Source: Herbiconiux sp. SALV-R1
GTDB lineage: Bacteria; Actinomycetota; Actinomycetes; Actinomycetales; Microbacteriaceae
Direction of reading: 5' to 3'
NCBI RefSeq assembly: GCF_013113715.1
Contig: NZ_CP053344.1
Span: 744,001 to 808,000, forward strand
Length of the DNA stretch: 64,000 nucleotides
Of the stretch, positions 7,759-12,105 are shown piece after piece. Numbering within the stretch: the first letter of the stretch is position 1; every line of letters starts with the position of its first letter. A model generated the notes under the pieces. It made no database searches and was not told the origin of the DNA. It saw nothing but the letters and a program-made list of their open reading frames with translations. The position numbers and the translations under genes were made by a program.

Positions 7759-10700
7759 TCAGTGCCAGCCCCACGACCAGGGGGCGGGGGTGCCGAGGAG
7801 CGCGGTGATGCGGGCGGGTCGGTCGACTGCGGGGAGGGCGGCGGCGGATGCGCGGGCAGCGCTGAGCGGGTCGGCAGCGGAGGCGGTGCTCGCCGCGGCA
7901 GACGTGGCGGGGGTCGCCGCGTCGTGCTGGTACCCGTCGAGGAGGGGGCCGAGGTGGAGGGCGGGGGAGTCCTGGCGGGCGCCCATCGACTCGGCGAGGG
8001 TGAGGAGTTCGAGGGTGACGTCGGGGTGGAAGGGCTGCACCCAGACGGCGAGTCCTATGACGGATGCGCCCAGCACGGGGTGGTCGACCCGGCCACCCAT
8101 CCGGAGTGTCGCGAGCGTGCGCGAGCGCAGCCGCCGAGCGAGCAGGAGGCGCTCGGCGGCGAGCGACTCCGGGGTGAGGTGCGCGCCCGCGAGGTGCAGG
8201 GCGTCGAGGGTCTGCGCGACGAGGGCTGCCGAGAGCACGATGAGGTACCACGGCGACGCGCGCATGCGCGGGGCGGAGGCGAAGGTGCCGACGGCGCGGG
8301 CGTAGTGCTCGCGGGCGTCGGCGAAGCGGCCCTCGGCCCGGGCGAGCTCGGCGAGGCCGGAGTGGCCGATCGCTGCGATGTCGACGCCGTCGCTCTCGCC
8401 CGGGCTCACCACGAGCCGCTCGAACACCTCGCGTGCCGCATCGAACTCGCCGGTGGCGATCTGGTTGCTGGCGATCACCCACTCGATCTGCCGGAGGTCG
8501 TCGGCGGCGCCGAGCCGTGCGAGACCGGTGCGGGCTTGCTCGGCCCAGCGGAGCGCATCCGTCGGCTCGTTGCTCTGGCTGTGCAGGGCGCCGAGCATCT
8601 GCGCGGCCATCGCGCCGCCCCAGGTGTCGTCGAGCGACTCGGCAAGGCGGGCCGCGGCGCGGGCGGAGGCGACGGCGTCGGCCCGGCGACCCTCGTTCTC
8701 GGCCCAGACGCTGCCCATGATCGCGCCGAGCAGAGTGGTGGGCCGGTGCGACGACTTCATCGCCACCTCGACGCGCCCACGCAGAAGGTTCTCGTCGCCC
8801 GAGGCCAGCAGCACGCCCGCCATCGTCGCCAGGCGTTCGTCGACCGGCGGATGCTCGCTCACCAGCCGCCGCAGCTGCGACAGCGGTCGCACCGCGAAGC
8901 GCAGATCGGTGAGCACGTTGGTCGCGACGACGATCACGAGTCCGAGCGTGAGCAGTTCGCGTCGCGCATCGTTGGGCGCATACCCGCGTAGCACCTCGTA
9001 GACCGGTCGGCTGAACGCCAGCACCTCGCTGTGGGCACTGCGCAGCGACCAGTAGTAGCCGAGCAGCGCGAACACCGACGCCACTACCTCGGCGCGCCCG
9101 CTGTCGATGGCGCGGCGGAGCAGGTCGATGAGGTTGTCCTCCTCGACGGCGATGACCGCGAAGGTCTCGACCTGGCGCGCCCCGTCGGTGTCGGGCAGCA
9201 GTCGCAGCGCGAGTGCGTCGGCCCAGCCGAACAGCGCGTCGCGCACCGCGTCGCGCCGACCCTCGAGGTCGAGCTGCTGCTGCCCGAACTCGCGCACCGT
9301 CTCGAGCATGCGGTACCGCATGCCCACCCGTCCTTCCACCATCACCACGAGCGACTGGGCCACGAGCGCGTCGAGCAGCTCGAGCGCCTCGAGTTCGTCG
9401 ACGCCGAGCACCGCGGCGGCCCCCTCGAGGCCGAACCCGTCGGCGAACTCCGACAGGCAGGCGAGGGCGCGCTGCTCGTCGCGGCCGAGCAGGTTCCAGC
9501 TCCATTCGATCACCGCGAACAGGGTGCGGTGCCGCTCGGGGGCCGAGCGGTCGCCGCCCGTGAGCAGCACGAAGCGGTTCGAGAGCCTGCGCTCGATCTC
9601 GTCGATCGACAGCGAACGGATGCGCGCCGCCGCCAGCTCAATCGCCAACGGAAGACCGTCGAGCCGCGAACACAGCCGCGCCACGGTGTCGAGCGGAAGG
9701 AGCGCGTCGGGGCGGGCGGCCGTGGCCCGGTCGACGAACAGCCGCACGGCGGGGTCGTCGAGTTGGGTGGGGTCGGCCTGGAGGGGCGTGCTGTGGACGG
9801 GTGCCGCGGGCGCGGGGCCGGGGCCGGACGCGGCCGTGGTCGACGGTGCGCTCGCGCTCGGCGCGATCGTGCTCGATGCGGCCGCGCCGCTCGCCCGCCC
9901 GGTCGGCGCGAGCGCATTCGTCGCGGCCACCCCGTTCGCGCGCCCGAGGGGCGGCAGCGCGTAGACCCGCTCGCTCGAGATCGCGAGCGGCGTGCGGCTG
10001 GTGGTGAGCACGGTGAGCTCGGGCAGCTCGCCGGTGAGCTCGGCGCACCAGGCCGCGGCAGCCTCGATGAGGTGCTCGCAGTTGTCGACGACGAGCAGGG
10101 TGCGACGCTCGCCGAGCCGGTTCAGGATGCGCGTGCGCAGGTCGGCCCGCACCACCTGGTCTCCGATGCGCCGACTGGTCGCCACCTCCCTGATGCCGAG
10201 GGCCGCGGCGAGCGCGAATACCACGTCGTCGCCCGACCGAACACCGGCGAGTTCGACGACGACGATCGACTCGAACGCACCGGCCGACGCCGCCCGGGCC
10301 GCGAGCTCGTGCGCGATGCGCGTCTTGCCCAGCCCGCCGGGCCCGAGCACGGTCGTGATCCGCGAGCGTCGAAGGAGCTGCTCGAGCGCGGCAAGGTCGC
10401 CGTCGCGCCCGATGAGGGCGTTCGGCGCCGCGCGCACGCCGCGCACGATCGCGGTGGGGGTCGATGCGCGCGCTACCGGCGGCGGGGCGACGACCACCGC
10501 GGAGCGCGGCGCCCCGGGCGTCACGTCATCGCGCGCAAGCAGTTCGAGGTGGAGCGCCTGCAGTTCGGGCGAGGGGCTCGTGCCGAAGGTCTCCTGCACC
10601 GCTGACCGGTACTGCGCGAAGACCTCCAGCGCCTCGGTGGGACGGCCCAGCGCATCGAGCGCCTGCATGAGCAGGAGTCGCGCGCTGTCGTCGAAGGGGG

Positions 10701-11301
10701 CGACGGCGGTGAGGCGACGGGCGAGCTCCTCGGCTTCGAGGGCTCGGCCGAGTCGCAGGGCCGCTGTCGCCTGGGCCGCCGTGAGGCCGTGGGAGGCCGC
10801 CGCCGCACGCTCCCGGAGAGCCTCCGCCGTTGCACCCGCGCCGAGGTCGGCCCCCGGCTCCGCACGCCACAGAGCCAGGGCGCTGCGGGCGAGCGAGTGC
10901 GCGCTCTCGTCGTCGCCGTCGTCGAGGGCCGCGCGGGCACGGTCGAGGGCATCCTCTGCGGCTCCGAGGTCGAGCTCGTCGGGCTCGATGTCGAGTCGAT
11001 AGCCCGAGGGCAGCGAGACGACGATCTCGTCACCCACGGTCGCCCGCAACCGCGACACGAGGGTCTGCAGCGCTGCCTTTGCGCCTGCGGGCGGGTCGTC
11101 GCCCCACACCTCGTCGATCAGCTGCGCCGTCGTGAGCGAGCGGGGCGCGGCGAGCGCGAGCGCCACGACGAGGGTTCGCGCGCGCAGCCCGGCCGGCTCC
11201 ACCCGCTCTCCCGTCCCGGACAGCACAGCGACAGGCCCGAGCACGGCCACGCGGCTGGGCTCCCCGCCCGCCACGGGGGTCGGGTGCCTGGCGTCGCTCA
11301 C
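7759..11301 (-). CDS. SARP/AfsR-type transcriptional regulator with ATPase and TPR region
   Basis: This protein of about 1,180 residues has an N-terminal winged-helix domain (RARTLVVALALAAPRSLT...LIDEVWGDDPP) and a bacterial transcriptional activation domain ending near residue 260 (ALEVFAQYRSAVQETFGTSP). An NB-ARC/AAA-like ATPase follows (P-loop GPGGLGKTR near residue 320; LLVVDNCEHL), then a long helical TPR-like C-terminus. AfsR-like regulators activate secondary metabolism and stress genes. I prefer GTG at 11301; a TTG lies 6 bp upstream. An Ala/Thr/Ser-rich low-complexity insert sits within the ATPase part (about 9,770-9,950). It is convergent to the ABC exporter and divergent from the guanidinium exporter. 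Confidence 0.9.
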   Translation of the reverse strand: MSDARHPTPVAGGEPSRVAVLGPVAVLSGTGERVEPAGLRARTLVVALALAAPRSLTTAQLIDEVWGDDPPAGAKAALQTLVSRLRATVGDEIVVSLPSGYRLDIEPDELDLGAAEDALDRARAALDDGDDESAHSLARSALALWRAEPGADLGAGATAEALRERAAAASHGLTAAQATAALRLGRALEAEELARRLTAVAPFDDSARLLLMQALDALGRPTEALEVFAQYRSAVQETFGTSPSPELQALHLELLARDDVTPGAPRSAVVVAPPPVARASTPTAIVRGVRAAPNALIGRDGDLAALEQLLRRSRITTVLGPGGLGKTRIAHELAARAASAGAFESIVVVELAGVRSGDDVVFALAAALGIREVATSRRIGDQVVRADLRTRILNRLGERRTLLVVDNCEHLIEAAAAWCAELTGELPELTVLTTSRTPLAISSERVYALPPLGRANGVAATNALAPTGRASGAAASSTIAPSASAPSTTAASGPGPAPAAPVHSTPLQADPTQLDDPAVRLFVDRATAARPDALLPLDTVARLCSRLDGLPLAIELAAARIRSLSIDEIERRLSNRFVLLTGGDRSAPERHRTLFAVIEWSWNLLGRDEQRALACLSEFADGFGLEGAAAVLGVDELEALELLDALVAQSLVVMVEGRVGMRYRMLETVREFGQQQLDLEGRRDAVRDALFGWADALALRLLPDTDGARQVETFAVIAVEEDNLIDLLRRAIDSGRAEVVASVFALLGYYWSLRSAHSEVLAFSRPVYEVLRGYAPNDARRELLTLGLVIVVATNVLTDLRFAVRPLSQLRRLVSEHPPVDERLATMAGVLLASGDENLLRGRVEVAMKSSHRPTTLLGAIMGSVWAENEGRRADAVASARAAARLAESLDDTWGGAMAAQMLGALHSQSNEPTDALRWAEQARTGLARLGAADDLRQIEWVIASNQIATGEFDAAREVFERLVVSPGESDGVDIAAIGHSGLAELARAEGRFADAREHYARAVGTFASAPRMRASPWYLIVLSAALVAQTLDALHLAGAHLTPESLAAERLLLARRLRSRTLATLRMGGRVDHPVLGASVIGLAVWVQPFHPDVTLELLTLAESMGARQDSPALHLGPLLDGYQHDAATPATSAAASTASAADPLSAARASAAALPAVDRPARITALLGTPAPWSWGWH

Positions 11302-11402
11302 GCACAAAGCCTAGGCGGAACCGCGTGTGTGCATCCGCCCGTGCACAGCCGCCGGTGAGCAGGCTGGCGTGCGACACTTGTCGCAAGGCCGCGGTGCGGC
11401 CT

Positions 11403-11447
11403 CCGGACGAGGGCGCAGTACCCGGCACGCGACAAGACTGACCACGC
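11403..11447 (+). promoter_or_regulatory. Guanidine-III (ykkC-III) riboswitch
   Basis: The conserved blocks of the class appear in order: CCGGACGAGG (11403-11412), GUACCCGG (11418-11425) and GACAAGAC (11431-11438). A GCGCAGU segment can pair with ACUG downstream to form the H-type pseudoknot. From memory this matches the Thermobifida fusca guanidine-III aptamer closely. It ends about 15 nt before the ATG of an SMR exporter, and the ribosome binding site (gggag, near 11449) lies just after it. Ligand binding probably frees or blocks translation initiation. Confidence 0.9.
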
Positions 11448-11462
11448 AGGGAGTGGACTGTC

Positions 11463-11777
11463 ATGTCATGGATCGTGCTCATCGCATCCGGCGTTCTCGA
11501 AGCCGTGTGGGCGACCGCGCTCGGCAAGTCGCAGGGCTTCACGAAGCTCTGGCCGACGGTGATCTTCGGGGTGGGCCTCATCGCGTCGATGGGTGGGCTC
11601 GCCTACGCGCTCCGCACCATCCCAGTCGGCACCGGGTACGCGGTGTGGGTCGGCATCGGCGCCTCACTCACCGTCATCTATGGCATGACCTTCGGCGGCG
11701 AGGGCTTCTCGCTCGTGCGCGCCCTCCTCGTGCTCGGCATCGTCGCCTGCGTGATCGGCCTGAAGCTCACCCACTGA
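11463..11777 (+). CDS. gdx: SMR-family guanidinium exporter Gdx (SugE type)
   Basis: This 104-residue protein has four transmembrane helices. Seen: Glu13 in helix 1 (GVLEAVWATALGKSQGFTK), the proton/guanidinium-coupling residue of SMR proteins, and the Trp and Lys/Ser pattern of the SugE/Gdx branch rather than the EmrE branch. Gdx proteins export guanidinium in exchange for protons and act as antiparallel homodimers. A single gene is present, which fits a homodimer. The guanidine-III riboswitch directly upstream supports the substrate independently. The stop codon lies at the head of a 62-bp tandem repeat array. Confidence 0.93.
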   Translation: MSWIVLIASGVLEAVWATALGKSQGFTKLWPTVIFGVGLIASMGGLAYALRTIPVGTGYAVWVGIGASLTVIYGMTFGGEGFSLVRALLVLGIVACVIGLKLTH

Positions 11778-11792
11778 TCCACCGGATGCGCG

Positions 11793-12065
11793 CTGAGCCG
11801 CCGGATGCGCGCATCAGTCGTCATGCTGCGTGGCAGTCGGGCGGAGGAACGGCACTGACCCGCCGGATGCGCGCACCGGCAGTCATGCACCGTGGCAGTC
11901 GGGCGGAGGAACGGCGCTGAGCCGCCGGATGCGCGAAGCGGCAGTCATGCACCGTGGCGGGCGGTCGAAGTAACGGCACTGACCCGCCGGATGCGCGCAC
12001 GTGAGGTCATGCACGGTGGCAGCCGGTCGGAGGAACGGCACTGAGCCGCTGCAGCCGCGCACCGG
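11793..12065. repeat. 62-bp tandem repeat array (4 full copies plus partials)
   Basis: Four consecutive units of exactly 62 bp (11793-11854, 11855-11916, 11917-11978, 11979-12040) share ctga[g/c]ccgccggatgcgcg at the head and ggaggaacgg near the tail. A partial fifth unit follows, and a partial copy at about 11772 includes the gdx stop codon. Divergence between units is modest. The units are contiguous, with no unique spacers. The 328-bp gap between gdx and the convergent yeiH gene holds nothing else that I can see. Confidence 0.92.
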
Positions 12066-12105
12066 CCACGTACGCCGGCCCGCCCGCCCGTTCCCCGCCG
12101 CGCGC

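Follow-up and report, generated by a model that had tools for sequence, protein, structure and literature searches.

The gdx locus and its neighbourhood

The window, i.e. the whole 64,000-nt stretch of Herbiconiux sp. SALV-R1 DNA analysed here, contains an SMR-family gene, gdx, whose leader harbors a guanidine-III aptamer and is preceded by promoter-like elements (Table 1). Searching the window against all Rfam families with cmscan placed the guanidine-III model (RF01763) upstream of the gene over its full length (positions 1–67 of 67) and with 53.9 bits (E 2.3e-8), 18 bits over the gathering score of 36. Such a search had been suggested as a check in a preliminary description of this DNA, which recognized the class by three motifs in characteristic order and spacing; these indeed lie at 11403–11412 (CCGGACGAGG), 11418–11425 (GUACCCGG) and 11431–11438 (GACAAGAC). 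Two of its measures needed correction: the aptamer had been taken to begin at 11403, but the model begins 20 nt further 5′ and includes the 5′ hairpin, and the gap from the end of the match to the ATG is 17 nt rather than 15 nt. Infernal found one guanidine-III match in the window, which is also the one reported (E ≤ 0.001) for the strain's own 4.5-Mb genome.

Table 1 Features of the gdx locus (window coordinates)
Feature	Position	Strand	Basis
Promoter box: half-sites TGCACAG (11342–11348) and TGAGCAGG (11356–11363)	11342..11363	+	Letters; consensus in relatives
Extended −10-like element TGCGACACT; predicted transcription start ~11384–11386	11370..11378	+	Place of TANNNT in relatives
Guanidine-III riboswitch aptamer	11383..11445	+	RF01763, 53.9 bits
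5′ hairpin of the aptamer model, GGCCGC/GCGGCC (GGCCGC-GGT-GCGGCC)	11387..11401	+	cmscan match, letters, relatives
Pseudoknot helix, CCGG 11403–11406 with CCGG 11422–11425	11403..11425	+	cmscan match; pairing in relatives
Conserved core GACAAGAC	11431..11438	+	cmscan match and letters
GGGAG, ribosome binding site 9 nt 5′ of the ATG	11449..11453	+	Letters, comparison
gdx, SMR-family predicted guanidinium exporter, 104 aa (ATG at 11463, stop ends 11777)	11463..11777	+	Frame, PF00893, NCBIfam, PDB match

The two CCGG strands form the pairing of nucleotides 1–4 with 21–24 of an H-type pseudoknot, and the ligand-contact residues C6, G7 and G17, as numbered in PMC5696562, are by position present as C11408, G11409 and G11418. 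The Thermobifida fusca guanidine-III RNA (ykkC-III, RF01763; structure 5NWQ, PMC5696562) is like the window RNA in core letters and pseudoknot, in the ribosome site close by and in the exporter gene downstream. The two differ in P2, where the Rfam alignment of the window aptamer marks two non-standard pairs, and the 41-nt crystal construct lacks the 5′ hairpin that the Rfam model includes. The promoter box of the window is a DNA feature outside the definition of the class.

The Gdx protein matched PF00893 with 71.8 bits (cut-off 23.7), which places it in the SMR family. The best of its 21 NCBIfam matches, the SugE equivalog PRK11431.1, scored 90.4 bits and thus below the cut-off of 126, so that the protein is not assigned to this model, whose range is narrower than that of the Gdx subtype. 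Its closest PDB match was 6wk5 (E 3e-20); this and its sister entries are titled only 'Multidrug resistance protein, SMR family' in the match list, and we take them to be Gdx-Clo. E13, W16, S42, Y59 and W62 are common to both proteins, including the Glu13 singled out in the preliminary description. These five residues and their roles are named for Gdx-Clo in PMC9574504. Both proteins are SMR members, with diverged sequences, and the combined matches support reading the window protein as a putative SMR guanidinium exporter. The eight nearest named relatives are 79–89% identical, six of them from Herbiconiux.

A second SMR-family gene of the genome (C1:3100622–3100888) has ATCGGC hexamers repeated in a row within its reading frame; the own-genome search gave no guanidine-III match beside it, the single match lying elsewhere. 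Divergent from gdx, a frame of 1182 aa (7759–11307, minus strand) presumably encodes a BTAD/SARP-type regulator, to judge by its sequence. On the other side, a 19-bp repeat unit covers 11774–11812 and a tandem array with a 62-bp period (4.4 copies, 11793–12066) starts 16 nt downstream of the gdx stop codon. A 186-nt piece of this array occurs at no other place in the genome.

Conservation of the leader and its predicted promoter in the Microbacteriaceae

Guanidine-III RNAs were detected in 146 of 299 genomes of the same family, the Microbacteriaceae, and exceeded the cut-off in 138. From the resulting 147 loci we read 111, a mutually related and non-random sample made up of the own-genome locus, the 30 best-scoring ones and 80 picked by hand from the rest (36 left out). 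A gdx-like gene follows the RNA in 103 of the 111, with a glutamate at position 13 in 99 of the 103, and another small membrane protein does so in seven. At one further locus (L099) our script recognized no gdx frame downstream of the match; the gene there is possibly broken or divergent. Starting from the protein, an aptamer core was present within 250 nt upstream in 64 of the best 80 named Gdx relatives.

The pseudoknot helix pairs at all 111 loci, with compensatory types at the first pair (CG in 88, GC in 22, GU in one) and the third (GC in 109, CG in two), counts that are partly expected from the search itself, whose model contains related pairs. In 108 of 111 loci, the 5′ hairpin exceeds the average of its shuffled versions in stability, and GACAAGAC is exact in 101 of the 111 leaders (100 by another parser's count). 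Both the guanidine-III class of the RNA and the Gdx-type SMR identity of the gene, as proposed earlier, are thus backed by separate tools and by recurrence of the same pairing across the family.

In the 18 nt immediately 5′ of the aptamer, TANNNT is present at 78 of the 111 loci; of its 80 occurrences, 74 start 8–11 nt 5′ of the aptamer, a placement from which transcription probably starts at the aptamer's first bases. The window lacks TANNNT at this place, where TGCGACACT sits instead, and a sigma-70 scan returned no promoter-like site. Overall, the comparison shows −10 element, aptamer and gene arranged in a single compact unit throughout the family.

Further upstream, a tandem TGnnCAG motif, TGCACAGnnnnTGATCAGG, scored at least 12 of 15 at 46 of the 111 loci, vs. 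0.16% of order-1 resampled sequences and none of the 111 sequences of a control stretch; at a threshold of at least 10 of 15, it was found at 69 of 111 loci vs. 5.6% of resampled sequences and 6/111 in the control stretch. These scores are favored because the consensus was picked by eye from the same loci that were then scored, and 65 of the 111 fall short of 12. TANNNT was in range at 27 of the 46 box loci, starting 28 bp after the motif in every one of them, with none in range at the other 19; so constant a spacing from the −10 element speaks for the box being a DNA site. The pattern TGCNCAGnnnnTGATCAGG occurred once each in eight of 15 other genomes of the genus, and neither in the own genome nor in 24 others. 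All eight matches directly precede a guanidine-III core, five at loci already used and three at new ones (G299, G301, G305). A stricter palindromic form of the box had no match in the own genome (backward control, 2 and 2). The box reached 12 of 15 or better in 18 of the 64 named relatives that have a core, and these come from Herbiconiux, Plantibacter, Agromyces, Cryobacterium, Microbacterium, a Microbacteriaceae bacterium and 'Corynebacterium-like bacterium B27'; in the rows scored for Demequina, Cellulomonas and Streptomyces it reached 10 at most.

The window's own box is degenerate, with a best score of 11 of 15 and half-site starts 14 bp apart vs. 11 bp in the consensus, while its second half-site keeps 17 bp to the −10-like GACACT. 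This respacing may point to protein control that has been altered or lost in this species. We know of no protein that binds the TGnnCAG box. Tentatively, and at somewhat less than even odds, Microbacteriaceae gdx genes may be under two layers of control, a putative DNA-binding protein at this dedicated box, whose start lies 28 bp upstream of the −10 element, together with the guanidine-III riboswitch at the mRNA 5′ end. GGAM-2, reported in PMC7736828 as an Actinobacteria motif that was found only before sugE and did not bind guanidine, is a possible lead for the box. The listings of our literature search contained nothing on promoter control of sugE in actinobacteria, which does not prove its absence from print. 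The conserved DNA box is the less ordinary point of the window locus, and the comparison raises the possibility that a regulator of guanidine export acts at the promoter.

Proposed riboswitch function and level of control

The window locus is itself ordinary, a new example of the known guanidine-III/gdx pairing, and we hold it to be very probable (about 0.95) that the gdx leader is a guanidine-III riboswitch raising Gdx output upon guanidinium, for export. Its transcript would probably begin with the opening bases of the aptamer. As guanidinium accumulates, it would bind the H-type pseudoknot of the leader and stabilize it; the stabilized pseudoknot would in turn increase Gdx output via translation and/or mRNA stability, and Gdx would export guanidinium by proton antiport. 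The basis for this explanation here consists of class, gene family, gene linkage and conservation, with ligand, ON direction and transport taken from the literature. For guanidine riboswitches, PMC9574504 gives dissociation constants of about 60–200 µM.

Given the two non-standard pairs in P2, the window RNA might instead be a degenerate, non-functional relic, yet its core letters are intact, its score clears the cut-off by the margin given above, and the identical pair of P2 strands is found in 18 loci, the window included, leaving such decay very unlikely. We give just as little credence to an anti-aptamer switch, in which CTTGTCGC (11377–11384) would compete with the aptamer as the exact 8-nt complement of the core GCGACAAG (11429–11436). 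The same strand contributes one half of the perfect 7-2-7 inverted repeat at 11370–11385 (TGCGACA-CT-TGTCGCA), which is in part complementary to the aptamer core and probably a product of chance. Despite its exact complementarity, CTTGTCGC was rejected as an anti-aptamer strand, being present near the aptamer in one of the 111 loci, that of the window, absent by eye from eight same-genus leaders, and located mostly 5′ of the predicted transcription start. The remaining alternative concerns only how the switch acts.

Translational control had been proposed in the preliminary description because the ribosome binding site lies right after the aptamer, and it also accords with published inference for the class: in PMC5696562, guanidine-III is an ON switch, and its pseudoknot in the bound state is proposed to make the ribosome site accessible. 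The position of the site held, but folding gave no indication of its masking. Partition functions were computed for 80 of the 103 gdx-like loci (22 were excluded because their ribosome site was missing or weak, and one was unparsed), by a method that models neither pseudoknot nor ligand. Across these 80, the mean chance of the ribosome site being unpaired was 0.648 in unconstrained RNA vs. 0.494 once the aptamer core was blocked (Wilcoxon p 5e-6); for the window locus, the values were 0.78 and 0.22. The 80 folded loci thus lend no support to a masked site in the unconstrained RNA, and the numbers run opposite to simple unmasking. Swapping aptamers between the same loci yielded a mean of 0.640, and the own aptamer left the site less open than swapped ones in only 34% of cases (p 0.024), so the idea of aptamers matched to their own ribosome sites for masking was dropped for want of any sign of it in the 80 loci. 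A terminator scan found none, which says little because none would be expected by chance either.

Within the riboswitch reading, bound guanidinium might mainly shield the mRNA 5′ end from decay instead of opening the ribosome site. In the relatives, the likely −10 element lies so near the aptamer (8–11 nt before it) that hairpin and pseudoknot would form the mRNA 5′ end. Such protection would agree with the unsupported unmasking and with PMC12186494, according to which guanidine-III hinders RNase E scanning. The transcription start is itself a prediction, however, and translational control is still compatible with these observations; we rate 5′-end protection a little below an even chance. We infer that the guanidine-III leader of gdx is likely an ON switch that works through translation, mRNA stability or both.

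Shortened cores in related leaders

In relatives only, guanidine-III-like cores also precede genes for a small membrane protein. A core was present upstream of 14 of its 15 strong homologues (E 2.4e-17 or better; L122–L132 and L134–L136), and none was found upstream of L133. In ten of these 14 Microbacteriaceae leaders, the core GACAAGACG is shortened to GACGACG, while L122, L123 and L136 retain GACAAGACG and L132 has GCAAGACG. Compared with NCBIfam, four proteins, three of them from Microbacteriaceae and the fourth, trimmed to 130 residues, from L161 in a different family of the order, were all assigned above cut-off to the CBU_0592 family membrane proteins; Pfam returned nothing over its cut-offs for the three Microbacteriaceae proteins. 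No CBU_0592-like small membrane protein was found in the own genome.

Pattern scans for the shortened core had matches in 32 of 297 genomes of the order and 41 of 296 of the class, most of which look like chance coding sequence. Of the order-scan matches, six picked by eye were read (class-scan matches were left out): L157, L158, L161, L162 and L169 show the shortened form, and L177 is without it. In L157, L158 and L169, which belong to other families of the order, the shortened core lies by eye 5′ of gdx-like genes and therefore need not mean a new ligand. Listings from our literature search contained neither a guanidine-III variant riboswitch nor a paper on CBU_0592, which for both does not prove absence from print. 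The shortened-core leaders, many of them before CBU_0592-family membrane proteins, offer a lead towards a guanidine-linked membrane protein outside the SMR family or towards a changed ligand.
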